A DNA stretch of 64,000 nt from an uncultured Bacteroidia bacterium (GTDB lineage Bacteria; Bacteroidota; Bacteroidia; Bacteroidales; UBA932): assembly GCA_902768985.1 (NCBI GenBank), contig CACXNA010000017.1:1-64000 (forward strand), in the 5' to 3' direction. Positions 10,730 through 50,244 of this stretch are shown here, piece by piece. The position numbers were made by a program, and so were the translations under genes. The notes under the pieces are model-generated. The model made no database searches, was not told where the DNA came from, and saw only the letters and a list, made by a program, of their open reading frames with translations. Each line of letters starts with the position of its first letter. The stretch's first letter is position 1.

Positions 10730-10755
10730 CAACTCGCTGCTTTCGGGGTGAGTTT

Positions 10756-10883
10756 GGGCGGTCACCGCCGGAATATACGATTTCCGGCGGCTCCCGCGGG
10801 TTATCAATTTGCTAGCAAGGTCGTTTAGTGCATCTGGCAGTGCTTGGGGGCACCGCCGCCTCCCATTACCATAGTCGGCGGCT
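10756..10883 (-). repeat. GC-rich palindromic element, copy 2 (inverted)
   Basis: The inverted relative of 165-296. The conserved segment runs from GGGCGGTCACCGCC through the perfect hairpin CCGCCGGAA/TTCCGGCGG and the block CTCCCGCGGGTTATCAA to GGGGGCACCGCCGCCTCCC. Following the inverted 108-bp copy 3, it preserves the pairing of the two elements seen at 165-430, so they probably moved as one unit. Confidence 0.75.
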
Positions 10884-10893
10884 GCATGACGGA

Positions 10894-10926
10894 CGATTTT
10901 GAGAGCCATGGGGGCTCTCAAAATCG
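10894..10926. other. Perfect 14-bp stem-loop in island 2
   Basis: CGATTTTGAGAGCC (10894-10907) and its exact complement (10913-10926) are separated by ATGGG. No T run follows on either strand. The surrounding 10927-11037 has no gene I can support. Confidence 0.5.
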
Positions 10927-11037
10927 CCTGCTTGCTGCCCAGTTGTTCCGGCAGCACCAGGCAACAGGCGTGGCGTCGCGAGCCGTGCGGTGGTGTACGC
11001 CCTGGCTACTCAATTAGCATACCTCTTCCGGCTGGAA

Positions 11038-11073
11038 CCGCCGACTACCGTAATGGGAGGCGGCGACAGCCCC
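11038..11073 (+). repeat. GC-rich palindromic element, fragment
   Basis: The segment CCGCCGACTACCGTAATGGG and the following AGGCGGCG match the reverse complement of 10857-10885, so this is a truncated copy. It sits 25 bp before 108-bp copy 4, the same order as in island 1. Confidence 0.6.
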
Positions 11074-11098
11074 AAAAATGCATCACCCGACGGAATGC

Positions 11099-11206
11099 CC
11101 GTTTTTCATAAACGACTATCAGTCAAATACTTGCTAGAGTAACCGGGGACTTTGGAACCTGGTTACTTTCAGAAAATATTCAATCATAGGTAATTACGAA
11201 AAACAG
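11099..11206 (+). repeat. 108-bp palindromic element, family 1, copy 4
   Basis: Exactly 108 bp and about 82% identical to copy 1 by my count (19 mismatches, no gaps), in the same orientation. The central block GGGGACTTTGGAACCTGG is unchanged. It is followed after 58 bp by the doubled hairpin, as in island 1 (62 bp). Confidence 0.85.
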
Positions 11207-11264
11207 GCAACCCATCCTCCTTCCCCACCCCCAAATTCTTGCCCAAACTCCCCTTAATCAAAAT

Positions 11265-11395
11265 CATCTGCGGAGGGAACATGCCACTGGATGGCGTAGA
11301 AGGCAGGTGAGGTCCGCAGGTGGCGGCCTGGGGCGTGCATCTGCGGAGTTGACCGGGCCTACAGTTGCGCCAAATCAAGGTCGGCTCCGCAGATG
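11265..11395 (+). repeat. Doubled hairpin element, copy 2
   Basis: CATCTGCGGA at 11265 and 11338 and TCCGCAGG/ATG at 11313 and 11386 reproduce the 48-25-48 spacing of 493-623 exactly. Most of the sequence between is also shared, including GTGGCGGCCTGGGGCG and the segment CGGGCCTACAGT. Conserved geometry over diverged loops suggests a structured element. Confidence 0.75.
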
Positions 11396-11435
11396 TTTTT
11401 GAACAAGGGGCGGGAGGCAAGGTCAGACATAACGA

Positions 11436-19741: not shown

Positions 19742-21985
19742 TTACGAGATCCGGCTGAAATCCCGGATCTCGTATTTTTCTTTCCGCAGCTCCCGCACCA
19801 GCGGGGCGTTCTGCGGCGCGGAGAGCGTCGGGTCGGCGTCCAGGACCTGCCCGGCGTAGATGCGGGCCTCGGTGAGCAGCTGGCCGTCCTTCGCCAGCGA
19901 GGCGATGTTCAGGCTGATGGGCAGGCCGCTCTGCTGCGTGCCCTCGAGGTCGCCGGGGCCGCGCATCTTCATGTCCTGCTCGGCGATCTCGAAGCCGTCC
20001 TCCGTCTGGCACATCAGGTCCAGTCGCTGCTGGGCCTCCTTGGACGTCTTGACGTCCTTGACCAGGATGCAGTAGGACTTCTCGGCGCCGCGCCCCACGC
20101 GGCCGCGCAGCTGGTGGAGCTGGCTCAGGCCGAAGCGCTGGGCGCTCTCAATCACCATCACGGAGGCGTTCGGCACGTCCACGCCGACTTCGATCACCGT
20201 CGTGGAAACCAGGATGTTGGCGCGGCCCGCCACGAAGGCGGACATGTTGAAATTCTTCTCCTCGCTGCTCTGCTGCCCGTGGACGATGGCCACCTTGTAG
20301 TCCGGCAGCGGGAAGGCGCTGACGATCTCCTCGTAGCCCTGCTCGAGGTTCTGCAGGTCCATCTTCTCGCTCTCGAAGATGAGCGGGAAGACCACGAAGA
20401 CCTGGCGGCCGCGGGCGATTTCTTCCCGCATGAACTTGTACATCGCCGCCCGGCGGTTCTGCCCGATGCACATCGTCTGGACGGGCTTGCGCCCCGGCGG
20501 CATCTCGTCGATGACCGACACGTCGAGATCGCCGTAGAGCGTCATCGCCAGCGTGCGCGGTATCGGCGTGGCAGTCATGACCAGAATGTGCGGAGGCACA
20601 TTCTGGTCTAACGATGCTTTCACCCCCTGCACCCCCTCAAGGGGGATGGCCGCAGATCGCTGCGCTCGCGGCGCCCACGCACCACTGCCAGGAGGCACCA
20701 GTGGACCTTTGCTCCAAAGCTTCGATCGCTGCTCCACGCCGAAGCGGTGCTGCTCGTCGATGACGGCGAGGCCCAGGTTGCGGAAGACGACGTTGTCCTC
20801 CAGCAGGGCGTGCGTGCCCACGATGATGCCCAGCGAGCCGTCCTCGAGGGCGGCGTGGATGGCGCGCCGCTCCTTCTGCGTCGTGCTGCCGGTCAGCAGC
20901 GCGCACTGCACGGAGGTGGGTTTCAGGTATTTCTGGATATTGGCATAGTGCTGCTGCGCGAGCACCTCGGTCGGGGCCATGATGCAGGTCTGGAAGCCGT
21001 TGCCGATGGCCATCAGGCAGCTCAGCACGGCCACCATGGTCTTGCCGGAGCCCACGTCGCCCTGCAGCAGGCGGTTCATCTGGTGGCCGCTGGTGAGGTC
21101 GGCGCGGATCTCCTTGATCACGCGCTGCTGCGCGCCCGTCAGCGAATACGGAAGGGCGTTGTAGCACGCGTGGAAGTCGGGGCCCACCTTGGGCATCTGC
21201 AGGCCGCGCTCGCCGCGCGAGCGGACGTATTTCTGCTTCAGCAGCGACAGCTGCAGGAAGAAGAGTTCCTCGAATTTGAGGCGGTAGGTCGCCTTCTGGA
21301 GGGCGTAGGAATCCTTCGGGAAATGGATGTTCTTCAGCGCGTACGGCAGCGACACGAGCCCCCGGTCGCGCAGGACGTACTCCGGCAGCGTCTCCTCGAC
21401 CTCCGGGAGGCAGAGCGACAGGGCGGCGGACTGGAGCTTGCACATCACCTTGCCGGTGATGCCGCCCGCCTTGAGCTTCTCCGTGCTCGGGTACACGCCC
21501 ATCAGGGCGCCCTGCGACATCGCCCCTTCCTGGGGCGCATCCACCTCCGGGTGGACGATGTTCATGCGCGTGCCGAAGGCCTGCGGCTTGCCGAAGAAGA
21601 GGAAGGTCGCCCCCGGGACGAGCCGCTGGAAGTTCCACTTGATCCCCTTGAAAAACACCATCTCCATGCGCCCGGAGGCGTCTTCGACGATGACCGACAG
21701 GCGCTTGCAGGCGCCGAAATGGATGGGATTGGTCTCCTGCGAGACGATGGAGCCGGCGGGGCCGTACAGCGTGCGGGTCACGACCGTGGCCTGCAGCTGG
21801 ACGAAGGCGAGGTCGGGCGCCACCTGCGCGATGGGCGTGATCCCGCTGCGGTCGATGTAGCGGAACGGGTACAGGTGGATGAGGTCCGAGAGGGTCTCGA
21901 TCCCGAGTTCGCGACGCAGGAGTTCGGCCCGCTTGGGACCGACCCCGGCGAGGTACTGTATGCTGCTGTCCAGTTCCTTGGCCAT
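19742..21985 (-). CDS. recG: ATP-dependent DNA helicase RecG, with in-frame insertion
   Basis: A 747-residue replication-fork remodelling helicase. It has the N-terminal wedge/OB domain (to about 270), Walker A GDVGSGKT, motif II DEQHRFG, motif III MTATPIPRTLA, and the C-terminal RecG motifs QLRGRVGRG and GPGDLEGTQQSG. ATG at 21985 (MAKELDSSIQYLAGVGPK) is chosen because it matches the usual RecG start; the frame is open much further upstream but runs under another gene. Residues about 429-461 are a 33-codon insertion between motifs II and III, from a repeat element also found in pcrA. Everything else is intact, so the protein may still work. The -7 box lies four bases upstream. Confidence 0.93.
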   Translation of the reverse strand: MAKELDSSIQYLAGVGPKRAELLRRELGIETLSDLIHLYPFRYIDRSGITPIAQVAPDLAFVQLQATVVTRTLYGPAGSIVSQETNPIHFGACKRLSVIVEDASGRMEMVFFKGIKWNFQRLVPGATFLFFGKPQAFGTRMNIVHPEVDAPQEGAMSQGALMGVYPSTEKLKAGGITGKVMCKLQSAALSLCLPEVEETLPEYVLRDRGLVSLPYALKNIHFPKDSYALQKATYRLKFEELFFLQLSLLKQKYVRSRGERGLQMPKVGPDFHACYNALPYSLTGAQQRVIKEIRADLTSGHQMNRLLQGDVGSGKTMVAVLSCLMAIGNGFQTCIMAPTEVLAQQHYANIQKYLKPTSVQCALLTGSTTQKERRAIHAALEDGSLGIIVGTHALLEDNVVFRNLGLAVIDEQHRFGVEQRSKLWSKGPLVPPGSGAWAPRAQRSAAIPLEGVQGVKASLDQNVPPHILVMTATPIPRTLAMTLYGDLDVSVIDEMPPGRKPVQTMCIGQNRRAAMYKFMREEIARGRQVFVVFPLIFESEKMDLQNLEQGYEEIVSAFPLPDYKVAIVHGQQSSEEKNFNMSAFVAGRANILVSTTVIEVGVDVPNASVMVIESAQRFGLSQLHQLRGRVGRGAEKSYCILVKDVKTSKEAQQRLDLMCQTEDGFEIAEQDMKMRGPGDLEGTQQSGLPISLNIASLAKDGQLLTEARIYAGQVLDADPTLSAPQNAPLVRELRKEKYEIRDFSRIS
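20592..20698 (-). repeat. 99-bp in-frame insertion element in recG
   Basis: Direct repeats GGAGGCAC at 20592-20599 and 20691-20698 bound the insert, whose length (99 bp from repeat to repeat) is 33 codons exactly. The 33-bp core at 20620-20652 is 32/33 identical to 48059-48091 in pcrA. Removing one direct repeat plus the insert restores a natural RecG sequence (SKGPLV joined to PPHILVM). The ends of the insert are inverted copies of the flanking recG sequence: CACATTCTGGTC (12 bp) on one side, CCACTG on the other. Confidence 0.8.
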
Positions 21986-21989
21986 ACTA

Positions 21990-21997
21990 CAAATATA
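21990..21997 (-). promoter_or_regulatory. -7 box of recG
   Basis: TATATTTG on the minus strand, four bases before the recG ATG, predicts a leaderless or nearly leaderless mRNA. It is back to back with the -7 box of the S9 peptidase gene. Confidence 0.55.
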
Positions 21998-22020
21998 CGA
22001 AAAATCCGGCCGAAAATTAT

Positions 22021-22028
22021 TACATTTG
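22021..22028 (+). promoter_or_regulatory. -7 box of the S9 peptidase gene
   Basis: TACATTTG, 26 bases before the ATG at 22055. No good -33 element is seen 20 bases upstream, a region shared with the divergent recG promoter. Confidence 0.5.
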
Positions 22029-22054
22029 CACTTCCAATACAGAACGACCACAAT

Positions 22055-24271
22055 ATGAAACGAGTATTCATCGCATTTACCTGTCTTGTTATGGCAATCA
22101 GTTGTGCTAAGAAAACCGACGAAAGCGGCTACATCGGCCCGTCCGAGATCCAGATCACGGACGGCGTGATGACCCCCGAGACGCTGCTCGCGTTCGGACG
22201 CCTGTCCGACCCGCAGCTCTCCCCCGACGGCAGCCGCATCCTCTACGGCGTTTCCTATACCGACATCGCGCAGAACCGCAGCTGCCGCAACCTCTTCCTC
22301 TGCAACCCGGACGGCTCCGACAAGGTCCAGCTGACGCGTTACGCGAAGAGCGTCAGCGGCGCCCGCTGGGCGAATGACGGCAAGAGCATCTACTTCATTC
22401 AGGGCGGCCAGCTTTGGAAGGCTCCGCTGAAGGGCAACCAGCTCGGCAAGCGCGAGCAGCTGAGCGACTTCCCCAACGGGGTCAGCGAATTCAAGCTCTC
22501 CCCGGACCAGCAGCAGGTGATCCTCGTCAGCACCATCAAGAACAAGGCCCTGGAGCAGCCCGCCGACGCCTACGAGGACCTCGACAAGGCGCAGGCCTAT
22601 GCCACCGAGGACCTGATGTACCGCCACTGGGACCACTGGGTGACCGACGTGCCGCGCAGCTACGTGGCCACGCTCGGCAACGGGATGATCACCCCGGAGA
22701 ACGCCGTGGACATCCTCGACACCGAGGAGCTCTTCGAGCTGCCCACCGAGCCGTTCGGCGGCGCGGAGCAGCTGGACTGGGCCCCGGACAACCGCCACAT
22801 CGTCTATTCCTGCCGCAAGAAGGTGGGCAAGCAGTACGCCTTCAGCACCAACACCGGCATCTATATCTATGACACCCTCACCGGCGCCACCCTCGACGTC
22901 AAGACGGACGGCGGCTACGACACCGACCCCGTCTGGAGCCCCGATGGCAGGCACATCGCCTGGATCGCCATGGCCCGTGACGGATATGAGGCGGATCGGC
23001 AGCGACTATTCGTCGCTGACGTCGAGCTGGTTGACATCGCCGACGGCCAGAACGCCGGCGTGCAGGTGCTGAGCGTCCGCGAGCTGCTGCCCGCGTTTGA
23101 CCACGACGTCGCCGGCCTGGTCTGGCACGGCGACGAGCTGTTCTTCAACGCCCTCGTCGGCGAAGGCGTCCAGGCGCTCTACTGCGCCGACCTGACGGGC
23201 GACGTGCAGCGCATCACCTCCCCCGACTGGAACTTCGACTTCTTCTCCCCCTTCGCCTTCCGCGAGAACGCCGGCGGCGTGGAGCTGCTCGCGTCCTACT
23301 ACTGCCTGAAGTTCCCGACCGAGCTGGTGTCCGTCAAGATCACCGAGTCCGGCGTGACCTTCGCCCAGATCACCAACGAGAACCAGCACATCCTCTCCCA
23401 GCTCGACGATATCAAGGACGAGCGCGTGTTCGTCGAGACCGTCGACTACCAGAAGATGCTCTGCTGGGTGCTCTATCCCCCGAAGTTCGATCCGTCCAAG
23501 CAGTATCCCGCCATTGAGATCGTGCTCGGAGGCCCGCAGGGCAGCAATTCCCAGGATTGGAGCTACCGCTGGAACTACCGCCTGATGGCCCAGCAGGGCT
23601 ACATCGTCATCCTCCCGAACCGCCGCGGCACCACCGCCTTCGGCCAGGCTTGGAAGGAGCAGATCTCCGGCGACTACGCGGGCCTGAACATGCAGGACTA
23701 CCTGAGCGCCGGCCGCTACATCAAGAACCAGCCTTACGTGAGCAAGCTCGCCTGCGTGGGCGCCTCCTACGGCGGCTATTCCGCCTATATGCTGGAAGGT
23801 ATGCACGGCGACCTCTACGATTGCTTCATCGCGCACGCCGGCATCTTCGACGAGAAGCAGCTCTGGTACACCACCGAGGAGATGTGGTTCGCCAACTGGG
23901 ACAACGGCGGCCTGACGCAGTACGCCTACACCCCCGGCCAGGTGGGCCCGGCCTACGACGGCGTCACCTTCGGCGGCATGCAGCAGGCCGGTGCGCCCTA
24001 CGCCTACACCCCGAAGGCCCAGCGCCACTACGCCAACTCTCCTTCCTCGATGGTCACGAAGTGGCACACCCCGATCCTCTGCATCCACGGCATGATGGAC
24101 TACCGCATCCCCTATGAGCAGGGCATGGCGGCCTTCAACGCTGCGCAGATGATGGGTGTTCCCTCCAAGCTCGTGATCTTCCCGGAGGAGAACCACTGGA
24201 TCCTCCAGCCGCAGAACTCCCTCTACTGGCACCGCGTCTTCTACGACTGGCTCGAGCGCTGGATGAAGTAA
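22055..24271 (+). CDS. S9 family prolyl oligopeptidase, lipoprotein
   Basis: A 738-residue serine peptidase of the prolyl-oligopeptidase/dipeptidyl-peptidase family. A lipoprotein signal (MKRVFIAFTCLVMAISC) anchors it in the envelope. A beta-propeller with WD40-like PD40 strands (PQLSPDGSRILYG, DPVWSPDGRHIAW) precedes the alpha/beta-hydrolase domain. Ser571 lies in GASYGGYS, the Asp in MMDYRIPYEQ and the His in ENHWI. It probably trims peptides from the N-terminus, but the exact specificity cannot be read here. ATG 22055 is chosen for its lipobox; the same frame stays open far upstream only as antisense to recG. Confidence 0.9.
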   Translation: MKRVFIAFTCLVMAISCAKKTDESGYIGPSEIQITDGVMTPETLLAFGRLSDPQLSPDGSRILYGVSYTDIAQNRSCRNLFLCNPDGSDKVQLTRYAKSVSGARWANDGKSIYFIQGGQLWKAPLKGNQLGKREQLSDFPNGVSEFKLSPDQQQVILVSTIKNKALEQPADAYEDLDKAQAYATEDLMYRHWDHWVTDVPRSYVATLGNGMITPENAVDILDTEELFELPTEPFGGAEQLDWAPDNRHIVYSCRKKVGKQYAFSTNTGIYIYDTLTGATLDVKTDGGYDTDPVWSPDGRHIAWIAMARDGYEADRQRLFVADVELVDIADGQNAGVQVLSVRELLPAFDHDVAGLVWHGDELFFNALVGEGVQALYCADLTGDVQRITSPDWNFDFFSPFAFRENAGGVELLASYYCLKFPTELVSVKITESGVTFAQITNENQHILSQLDDIKDERVFVETVDYQKMLCWVLYPPKFDPSKQYPAIEIVLGGPQGSNSQDWSYRWNYRLMAQQGYIVILPNRRGTTAFGQAWKEQISGDYAGLNMQDYLSAGRYIKNQPYVSKLACVGASYGGYSAYMLEGMHGDLYDCFIAHAGIFDEKQLWYTTEEMWFANWDNGGLTQYAYTPGQVGPAYDGVTFGGMQQAGAPYAYTPKAQRHYANSPSSMVTKWHTPILCIHGMMDYRIPYEQGMAAFNAAQMMGVPSKLVIFPEENHWILQPQNSLYWHRVFYDWLERWMK

Positions 24272-47787: not shown

Positions 47788-50244
47788 CTATGCCAGCGGG
47801 CGGATTTTGGCGTATTTGAGCAGCAGGAGCTTCTCGCCGTGGTCGTCGAAGCGGATCTTGGCCTTCATCTCGGGGGCGCGGCCAGAGAGTTCAAGGATGG
47901 TGCCCGAGCCGAAACGGTTATGTTCAATCCGCTGACCAACAGTCAATTCCGTCATAGGTACTCCCACAAAATTCGCATCCGCGAGTGCTGACGCGGCGGC
48001 AGAAACACCTGTCCCCGGCTGGTTGGCGCGCGGGCGCCGGTCCGCGTCAGCGGATATCCGGCCATCCCCCTTGAGGGGGCGCAGGGGGTGAGAATTCGGA
48101 TCGATTCGGCCTTGTCCGAATCGTAAAGCTCCGCCACGCTTCTGATACTGCACACCGGAAGACTGACCATAAGTACCACCACCGACACCGAAGCGGTCGA
48201 GGCGGCCGCCGGTGAAGCGGGAGCCGAAGCCGCCCCATTCGTGCGTCACGCCGGCATTGTCGAAATCGGCATCCTCCAGCGGATTCTCGATATAGCGCGG
48301 ATCGATCTCCTTGAGGAAGCGGGACGGCGCGTTGGACTCGTGCTTGCCGTTGCGCATGCGCGTCCCGGCGAAGGACAGGCGCACCGCCTTCTTGGCGCGC
48401 GTCATCGCGACGTAGAAGAGCCGCCGCTCCTCCTCAACCTCCGGCTTCGCCGCCAGCATCGAGGCGCTCGGGAACAGGTTCTCCTCCATGCCGGCCACGA
48501 ACACGTACGGGAACTCCAGGCCCTTCGAGGAGTGGGCCGTCATCAGCGCCACTTTATTATTAGTATCCTCGTCCTCGCTCACGTCGACGTTGCTGAGCAG
48601 GGAGACGTTCTCCAGGAAATCGTCCAGCGTGAACACGCCGACCTCTCCCCCTTCGGCCTCGTAATCCTCGGCCTCCTCCCTGCGTTCCTCGACGAACTGC
48701 GCCACGCTGTTGATGAGCTCCTCGAGGTTCGCCACGCGGGACAGGCCCTCAATGGAGGTGTCCAGCTTGTAGAAGGCGTACAGGCCGCTCTCGTCGGCGA
48801 TACGCTTCGCCAGCTCCCAGGCGTCGGTCGTCGGGACGAGGCCCGACAGCCGGAGGATCATCTCGCAGAACGGCTGCACCTTGGGCACCTCGCGCGCGGC
48901 CTGGAAGAGCGGCCAGCCCTGCTGGCGCGCCACGGCCTCGATGGCCTCCATGGCCTTGTCGCCGACGCCGCGCGCGGGCTTGTTGACCACCCGGCGGAAC
49001 GACTCGTCGTCGCGCGGGTTGACGACCAGCTTGAAGTAGGCCATCATGTCCTTGACCTCGGCGCGGTCGAAGAACGAGTTGCCCGAATAAATCATATAAG
49101 GAATATTGCGCCGGCGGAGCTGCTCCTCCAGCGCGCGGGACTGCGCGTTCGTGCGGTACAGGATGGCGAAATCCTGGTACTGGGCCCGCGCGGTGCGCAT
49201 ACGCTCCAGGATCTCGGAGACGATCATCACCGCCTCCTCCGTCTCCGTGTAGGCCTTCAGCAGGCGGATCGGCTCCCCGTCCTCACCCACGGCGTAGCAC
49301 TCCTTGGGGATGCGCCCCTCGTTGTGGGCGATGAGCGAATTGGCGGCGTCCACGATGACCTGTGTGGAGCGGTAGTTGCGCTCCAGGCGGAAGAGCTTGC
49401 ACTCAGGGTAATCCTTCTTGAAACTGAGGATGTTCTCGATGCGCGCGCCGCGGAAGGCGTAGATGGACTGGCTGTCGTCGCCCACCACGCAGATGTTGTG
49501 GTGGCGCTGCGCCAGCTTCTTGAGGATCAGGTACTGCGCCTGGTTCGTGTCCTGGTACTCGTCCACCATCAAGTGCGTGAAGCGCCCGGAGATGGAGGCG
49601 AGCGCCTCCGGGTTATCCCGGAGCAAGTAGTTCATATTCAGCAGGATGTCGTCGAAGTCCATCACCCCGCTCTGCTTGAGCTTCTCCTGGTAGCGCTGGT
49701 AGACCTCCCCCAGGCGCGGGCGCTTGGCGTGGTAGTCCTGCGCCTGGAGCTCCTGGGCGGCCTGGTAGGCCGTGTAGGTAATGAGGTTATTCTTGGCCAT
49801 GGAGATGCGGGAGAGCACCTCGCGCGGCTTGTAGATCTTGTCGTCGAGTCCCATCTCCTTCACGCAGGCCTTGACGGCGCTCTGCGAGTCGGAGGTATCG
49901 TAGATGGTGAAATTGGTCGGATAGCCCAGCGATTCCGCGTACTCGCGCAGGAAACGCACGAACACGGCGTGGAAGGTGCCCATCACCACGCGCCGCACAT
50001 TTCCGTCGCCGACCATCGCGGCGATCCGTTCCTTCATCTCGCCGGCCGCCTTCTTCGTGAAGGTCAGCGCCAGGATGCGCGCATCTGCCTGTAATGCCAG
50101 TATATACGCCACCCGGCTGGTCAGCACGCGGGTTTTCCCGGATCCCGCTCCCGCCACGATTAGCACCGGTCCGTCCACCTGGCAGACGGCTCTCTTCTGC
50201 TCCTCGTTCAATTCTTCCAAAATCGTGTTCACTTTATCCATCAT
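47788..50244 (-). CDS. pcrA: UvrD/PcrA-type DNA helicase, with in-frame insertion
   Basis: An 818-residue superfamily I helicase. Motif I GAGSGKTRVLTSRVAY, motif II DEYQDTN, motif III GDDSQSIYAFRGA, motif IV RLERNYRST and motif VI VAMTRAKKAVRLSFAG are present; the C-terminal Tudor-like domain follows (LTVGQRIEHNRFGSG). Between it and the helicase core, about residues 710-743, lies an insertion from the repeat element also present in recG (core at 48059-48091). The reading frame is kept. ATGATG at 50244/50241 is the start; a TAATTTCG-like -7 box lies close upstream. Confidence 0.92.
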   Translation of the reverse strand: MMDKVNTILEELNEEQKRAVCQVDGPVLIVAGAGSGKTRVLTSRVAYILALQADARILALTFTKKAAGEMKERIAAMVGDGNVRRVVMGTFHAVFVRFLREYAESLGYPTNFTIYDTSDSQSAVKACVKEMGLDDKIYKPREVLSRISMAKNNLITYTAYQAAQELQAQDYHAKRPRLGEVYQRYQEKLKQSGVMDFDDILLNMNYLLRDNPEALASISGRFTHLMVDEYQDTNQAQYLILKKLAQRHHNICVVGDDSQSIYAFRGARIENILSFKKDYPECKLFRLERNYRSTQVIVDAANSLIAHNEGRIPKECYAVGEDGEPIRLLKAYTETEEAVMIVSEILERMRTARAQYQDFAILYRTNAQSRALEEQLRRRNIPYMIYSGNSFFDRAEVKDMMAYFKLVVNPRDDESFRRVVNKPARGVGDKAMEAIEAVARQQGWPLFQAAREVPKVQPFCEMILRLSGLVPTTDAWELAKRIADESGLYAFYKLDTSIEGLSRVANLEELINSVAQFVEERREEAEDYEAEGGEVGVFTLDDFLENVSLLSNVDVSEDEDTNNKVALMTAHSSKGLEFPYVFVAGMEENLFPSASMLAAKPEVEEERRLFYVAMTRAKKAVRLSFAGTRMRNGKHESNAPSRFLKEIDPRYIENPLEDADFDNAGVTHEWGGFGSRFTGGRLDRFGVGGGTYGQSSGVQYQKRGGALRFGQGRIDPNSHPLRPLKGDGRISADADRRPRANQPGTGVSAAASALADANFVGVPMTELTVGQRIEHNRFGSGTILELSGRAPEMKAKIRFDDHGEKLLLLKYAKIRPLA
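48010..48120 (+). repeat. Insertion element copy in pcrA
   Basis: The 33-bp core at 48059-48091 is the reverse complement of the recG core with a single mismatch. Further shared sequence (CGGCGCCC-CGC-CCA) extends the match on one side. It is bounded by imperfect direct repeats GGACAAGG and GGACAGG (minus strand). Flanking hairpins are again formed by inverted copies of adjacent pcrA sequence: CGATTCGG/CCGAATCG (48102-48123), and GCTGACGCGG with its complement (47987-48051). It is in the opposite orientation to the gene compared with recG, so it is translated as a different peptide. Confidence 0.7.

Follow-up and report, generated by a model that had tools for sequence, protein, structure and literature searches.

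A mobile repeat inserted in frame in recG

The window analysed here is a 64,000-nucleotide stretch of contig C17, which belongs to a 28-contig, 2.35-Mb genome of an uncultured Bacteroidia bacterium. It carries a recG gene, identified by the NCBIfam models NF008168 and TIGR00643 with scores above both cut-offs, and between the motifs DEQHRFG and MTATPIPR this gene contains 33 codons that give 32–33 extra residues. The parts of the insertion, together with a second copy of its core in the window, are as follows.

19742–22087, minus strand: recG with the insertion, from NCBIfam recG models and alignment; the start codon was picked from the alignment and is approximate
20579–20591, minus strand: host-side arm (y) of the 3' hairpin, made of native recG codons for HILV, by comparison with empty recG alleles
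20592–20595, minus strand: hairpin loop, native PP codons; with 20596–20599 it makes up copy 1 of the direct repeat (GGAGGCAC)
20596–20608, minus strand: inserted arm y', an inverted copy of the host arm, 13/13 complementary
20609–20617, minus strand: variable spacer from the core to y', from the sequence and comparison of copies
20618–20682, minus strand: conserved element core with the in-frame reading GAWAPRAQRSAAIPLEGVQGVK, from 7 copies in the source genome and 64 same-genus copies
20683–20690, minus strand: element 5' end (CAGTG of CAGTGGTGCG) with its junction to the host, similar in recG copies L139, L140 and L044
20691–20698, minus strand: copy 2 of the direct repeat (GGAGGCAC), a possible 8-bp target duplication of the recG insertion
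48028–48091, plus strand: second core copy, in antisense orientation within a PcrA/UvrD-type helicase gene, in its C-terminal part and past the model-matched stretch
48102–48123, plus strand: 3' hairpin of the pcrA copy with 8-bp arms and a 6-nt loop, from the sequence and hairpin scoring

The two motifs are 57 aa apart in the RecG of the window, against 24–25 aa in insert-free recG of the same genus. Among 30 recG alleles compared, 21 were empty (24–25 aa between the anchors) and nine carried inserts, in a set that is biased towards empty alleles because most of its members were drawn from the top 30 matches of a query without insert; the filled alleles L034, L044 and L139, which the pattern missed and other comparisons found, lie outside this count. 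The RecG of the window shares 89 and 91% identity with two of the empty proteins. An AlphaFold2 model of RecG built on a 16-sequence alignment was mediocre (pLDDT 65, pTM 0.46), and in it residues 463–496, corresponding to the insert, had a pLDDT below 50 and were unstructured, with a helix on one side and a strand on the other.

Elsewhere in the window, the blocks 165–636 and 10753–11408, about 10.8 kb apart, share long direct (75–83%) and inverted (85%, 112 nt) repeats.

Recurrence and distribution of the element

In the source genome, a repeat of roughly 70 bp has seven strong copies, the recG insert among them. Six other places match this insert at E 3.5e-9 or better, and one of them is the pcrA copy in the window. 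The core common to the recG and pcrA inserts spans 39 nt at 92% identity, and its inner 33 nt agree at 32 positions by eye, as had been noticed from the letters. Within the genus, the 68-nt core was found in 12/151 genomes, and a variant query under a stricter limit matched 25 of 400 genomes (two candidates scored per genome). The family-level search matched 9/199 genomes, namely the source genome and eight of one sister genus (g4), which keep only a shortened form between genes, a 27–29-nt part around CCCCCTTGAGGGGGNGCAGGGGGTGA; at the order level, one of 295 genomes matched, the source genome itself. The exact core pattern was present in 32 stretches of genome contigs, all titled Bacteroidales or Bacteroidia and several with ruminant sample names. 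Searches for the element in viral contigs, plasmids and phages returned no match, an Rfam search of the recG region (window 20400–20900) was likewise negative, and a limited literature search found no name or earlier description of the family.

A sequence-only reading of the window had taken the extra residues for a mobile palindromic-type element, akin to the Rickettsia palindromic elements (RPEs), tolerated in frame in a loop of RecG. That proposal is supported: related RecG proteins lack the insert residues, and the core is present elsewhere in the genome and in relatives. The observation of an in-frame repeat insert in the recG of the window is confirmed.

The sister-genus copies (L216–L223) are relatives of the core with 3' hairpins scoring 11–23. 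Near tRNA and tmRNA genes, their arm seems by eye to be a mirror copy of sequence flanking or ending the RNA gene; the tmRNA in L217 is the clearest case. A weak core match in L234 (about 2534–2660 in reverse-complement coordinates) stands right after the stop codon of a gene, with a 21-bp perfect inverted copy of the last codons and stop of that gene. A second repeat family of about 80 bp, reading TVAARGLVNGG...GDERSEV, was also seen in several genes; its sites in the source genome are C1:219805, C3:125635 and C7:61047 (L240–L242), with others in L095, L099, L100, L105 and L214. The outer arms of this second family differ among copies and look complementary within each by eye, and it occupies the same recG loop in other genomes.

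Host genes and reading frame

The element sits mostly in genes of one Bacteroidales genus. The hosts identified above NCBIfam cut-offs are RsmG, TruA, a SpoIID/LytB-domain protein, MurE, MtaB, NADPH-dependent glutamate synthase and FGAM synthase; the PcrA/UvrD-type, RlmN and RlmI matches are strong yet below curated cut-offs, and two such ORFs are truncated by the ends of their loci. Both filled and empty alleles are known for recG, rsmG, mtaB and the spoIID-like, glutamate synthase, rlmI-like and rlmN-like genes. Among the hosts named, RNA-modification and DNA-repair enzymes seem frequent, which resembles the intragenic REPs of PMC3733652.

Across the element, one sense frame is open in 60 of the 64 same-genus copies, and the other two in 2/64 and 3/64. 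The exceptions are an apparently intergenic copy with no open frame (L007), antisense copies in pcrA (L004) and murE (L137), and a copy whose label is shifted by a one-base length difference (L036). A stop in the favoured frame occurs in one of 56 aligned cores, and that core is an antisense copy. Further antisense copies lie in recG (L051, L138) and, by eye, in an apparent rRNA methyltransferase gene (L083). In the analyses of frame, diversity, internal stem and hairpin against identity, the weak matches L037, L170 and L234 and the eight sister-genus copies were counted apart or omitted; the diversity and stem analyses used the 56 and 54 of 64 copies, respectively, that are full-length and more than 75% identical.

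With one sense frame free of stops the element can persist inside proteins, and recG, rsmG and the other hosts appear to be translated through it as an extra loop. Judging from these open frames, the element is most likely translated and not spliced or bypassed. Selection on the encoded peptide was considered and rejected: pairwise diversity at codon positions 1, 2 and 3 is 0.081, 0.183 and 0.154, so that third positions show no freedom and the conservation does not look codon-like. Conservation seems to act on a nucleic-acid structure in which one frame happens to stay open. Inside the element body are two hairpins, GCCGGATCGC-GACA-GCGATTATCCGGC and CCCCC-TTGA-GGGGG, with GCAGGGGGTGAAG after them. 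The internal stem is 94% paired, against a mean of 86% and a maximum of 88% in shuffled controls, and compensatory changes are present. Terminal inverted repeats were not found for the family, the hairpins being internal only, and the REP tag tetranucleotides are not fixed in it (CGTC in 21/64 copies, at most 10 at any one position; GTAG in 7/64).

A hairpin with a host-derived arm at the 3' junction

At its 3' end the recG insert runs into a perfect 13-bp hairpin with a 4-nt loop (20579–20608), beside the codons for PPHILV. The inserted end had been described as an inverted copy of this flank, and all 13 positions are indeed complementary. Ten codon-shuffled copies of the whole window contained three hairpins of at least 11 bp, one of them 14 bp.

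Flank copying on this side is usual among the copies. A 3' hairpin score of at least 8 was reached by 36/51 copies, compared with 2/255 mononucleotide shuffles. In the 44 copies with such a score, 6–12 variable nucleotides usually follow the core on its right (36 of 44); after this spacer comes an arm of 8–21 nt that is the reverse complement of host sequence a few nucleotides downstream, with a loop of 2–6 nt in 35 of the 44. The outer arm is host coding sequence, which reads PHILV in RecG, LDLGT in RsmG, VESVVIP in RlmN and DFDVC in the SpoIID-like protein. In antisense recG copies the hairpin follows the 3' end of the element to the opposite side (L138 with 21 bp, and L051, which shares its site with L108).

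A stronger control set filled against empty alleles within seven host genes, and scores of at least 8 were reached by 23/29 filled and 5/54 empty alleles. Here L189 was counted as filled, and 11 alleles with other or antisense inserts were excluded, one of which (L183) scores at least 8; the alleles in this contrast and in the recG spacing comparison include orthologous copies and are not independent, which makes the p-values calculated for the contrast too small. In the empty recG alleles (n = 23), the best hairpin that uses the host right arm scores only 3–6. Six of the 29 filled sites score below 8, including the glutamate synthase alleles L211 and L212 and the rlmN allele L047. The contrast is weak for the spoIID-like gene, in which three of six empty alleles score 8–9 and three filled ones 8–11, and three of the five high-scoring empty alleles belong to this gene. 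In the spoIID-like gene of L183, a different insert stands beside nearly the same host-mirroring hairpin that accompanies the element in L039, L182 and L184, as if element bodies had been swapped beside a standing hairpin.

The arms also change together with the host. In four hand-chosen recG segments, 4 of 13 arm pairs changed on both sides along with the host codons, and 94% of cells are paired, compared with 25–47% in slid controls. The covariation score was reached by 2/500 shuffles, the count of pairs changed on both sides by 49/500 and the pair-type count by 302/500. Three of the four insertions have their left junction in common and are probably one old insertion, in which case the covariation would postdate the insertion. 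In the mtaB copies L029, L195 and L196, the arm sequence, centre and loop all differ. No correlation links the quality of the hairpin to the identity of the core (rho 0.14, p 0.29, n = 64), and this together with the differing centres in mtaB counts against simple inheritance of the hairpin. By the same token, later rewriting or selection fits as well as a hairpin made once at insertion and then decaying.

The 5' side and the direct repeat

The other edge of the recG insert pairs CCACTG with CAGTGG (6 bp, 11-nt loop). CAGTGG is largely element sequence, recurring as CAGTGGTGCGTGGG or GAGTGGTGCGTGGG in other recG copies. Over 51 copies, left-side hairpins scored at least 7 in 8/51, compared with 20/153 mononucleotide shuffles, which is not above chance. 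Of the flank copying proposed for both edges, the part on the 3' side of the element therefore stands, and the part on the 5' side does not.

The 8-bp direct repeat in recG is present as read, with GGAGGCAC at 20592–20599 and again at 20691–20698, and of all examined sites, only this insertion in another genome (L096) has it too. Direct repeats of at least 7 bp occur at 9/63 sites, two of these being one recG insertion. Mismatched pairs have such repeats in 5.6% of cases; with 3–4 sites expected, the excess is mild. Target-site duplication as a general mark of insertion is not borne out by these numbers, although some sites may carry occasional duplications.

Origin of the insert and of its hairpin

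We consider it likely that the insert is a small, structured, non-autonomous mobile DNA element, inserted in frame and translated as an extra loop, whose 3' arm derives from template switching on the host flank. Template switching has been described to create and maintain perfect hairpins by reverse-complement copying of adjacent sequence (PMC8794818). The same pattern is seen here, since the arm reverse-complements the adjacent host sequence and follows host changes, the latter in four recG sequences only; in this family it is bound to one end of a dispersed element. Such switching most likely made or renewed the 3' arm. The 3' end of the right-hand host strand would fold back, using a short stem already present in the host (GTGC-CTCC-GCAC in the case of recG), be extended by copying itself and then run on into the element during insertion. 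Later, the arm would be rewritten by the same kind of quasipalindrome correction and so follow changes in the host codons. That insertion itself takes this hitherto undescribed route, with the target strand folding back at its 3' end, copying itself and continuing into the element, is a possibility we advance tentatively. If it is true, each new copy builds its terminal hairpin from the host, and the one-sided inverted copy of the target is the signature of the mechanism.

Alternatively, the 3' hairpin could be kept by selection. The element or its putative transposase would need a terminal hairpin that borrows its arm from the host, or the hairpin would function in the mRNA, and the compensatory changes would be selected instead of templated. 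We regard this as rather unlikely, even though the hairpin is one-sided, keeps its 6–12-nt distance from the core in 36/44 copies scoring at least 8, is not lost as the core diverges, and scores 11–23 at all eight sister-genus copies examined (14 places listed), where some hairpins may be terminators. Hairpins are weak at six of 29 filled sites, and the arms, centres and loops that differ between the mtaB insertions are explained more simply by templated rewriting.

A preference of the element for hairpins already standing in the target is improbable, since only 5/54 empty alleles of the seven genes score at least 8 and the recG empties stay at 3–6. This idea draws on the VPPH codons, which give the short GTGC-CTCC-GCAC stem in the empty recG allele L092 too, on the 8–9-point hairpins of three of six empty spoIID-like alleles, and on the four of eight sister-genus copies whose neighbour is a tRNA or tmRNA gene, a place at which one expects terminator hairpins. 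The arm may be seeded by a short stem of the host, which does not account for 13–21 bp.

The sequence-only reading had also thought it conceivable that the insert is cut out of the RNA or skipped by the ribosome, the direct repeats in the hairpin loops serving as joining sites. The same 8 nt do lie at or in both recG hairpin loops; identical loop repeats are not general, the same frame is open in 60/64 copies, and the idea, not supported by these data, is very improbable. An ordinary variable RecG loop or an assembly artefact can be dismissed, for although the comparison leans heavily on metagenome-assembled genomes (by title), the same core recurs in unrelated genes and in many independent assemblies.

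Returning to the template-switched mobile element that we favour, searches for Y1 transposase and reverse transcriptase in carriers and non-carriers gave no enzyme that could be linked to its movement. Y1_Tnp matched at E 0.001 or better in 11/12 carriers versus 99/139 other genomes; being weakly present in most genomes, with or without the element, it points in neither direction; carrier G119 is not among the matching genomes, and the source genome has one match, at E 1e-3 only. Reverse transcriptase (PF00078) gave no match in six of 12 carriers, including the source genome, and was found in five of 12 non-carriers. A retroelement mobilised by reverse transcriptase was therefore rejected, the enzyme being absent from half of the carriers examined; one acting in trans and later lost may have been involved.

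Relation to known elements and significance

Selfish elements that sit in frame in conserved proteins have been described above all from Rickettsia and Wolbachia, and to our knowledge the question of how they move is unsolved. The RPEs and the Wolbachia protein-coding palindromes are structured repeats of 105–146 bp fused in frame in conserved genes, and a guanylate kinase carrying such an element is reported to be active (PMC2229807). The Bacteroidales family likewise inserts in frame in conserved protein genes. It comes from a different phylum, and neither the terminal inverted repeats nor the long stem-loop of those elements was found in it; a 3' junction built from the host is not described in the part of PMC2229807 consulted. 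The likeness to RPEs is one of description, and the exact core pattern was found only in Bacteroidales and Bacteroidia contigs.

Enterobacterial RU/ERIC and the 107-bp Correia elements are likewise small and non-autonomous, have open frames and occur as in-frame fusions with genes, and in the account of PMC2229807 that we consulted they are MITE-like with terminal inverted repeats. Compared with them by description only, the Bacteroidales family shows neither the terminal inverted repeats nor the regular target-site duplication of a MITE. Intragenic REPs (GTAG/CGTC), linked to RAYT, are small palindromes that sometimes lie in repair and RNA-modification genes; two Xanthomonas species have recB hit at roughly matching positions, and CGTC repeats are reported from five phyla including Bacteroidetes (PMC3733652). 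The REPs of that report, as far as consulted, are mostly intergenic, and neither GTAG nor CGTC is fixed in the Bacteroidales family. In Nematomorpha mitochondria, perfect inverted repeats lie in translated genes with both arms coding for conserved protein regions (PMC6649704); unlike in the Bacteroidales family, no mobile repeat is mentioned in the consulted part of that report.

The Bacteroidales element thus behaves like RPEs and intragenic REPs and is filed under neither, because terminal inverted repeats and fixed REP tags were looked for and not found. What distinguishes it from both is the 3' junction, where in most cases the host sequence just downstream reappears inverted at the end of the insert. 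Because near relatives offer many alleles with and without the element, its boundaries can be determined in detail. The inverted copy of the host flank, present on one side only, is a concrete and testable footprint of the arrival or upkeep of the element, and in recG the arms of its hairpin are seen to evolve in step with the codons of a conserved helicase.
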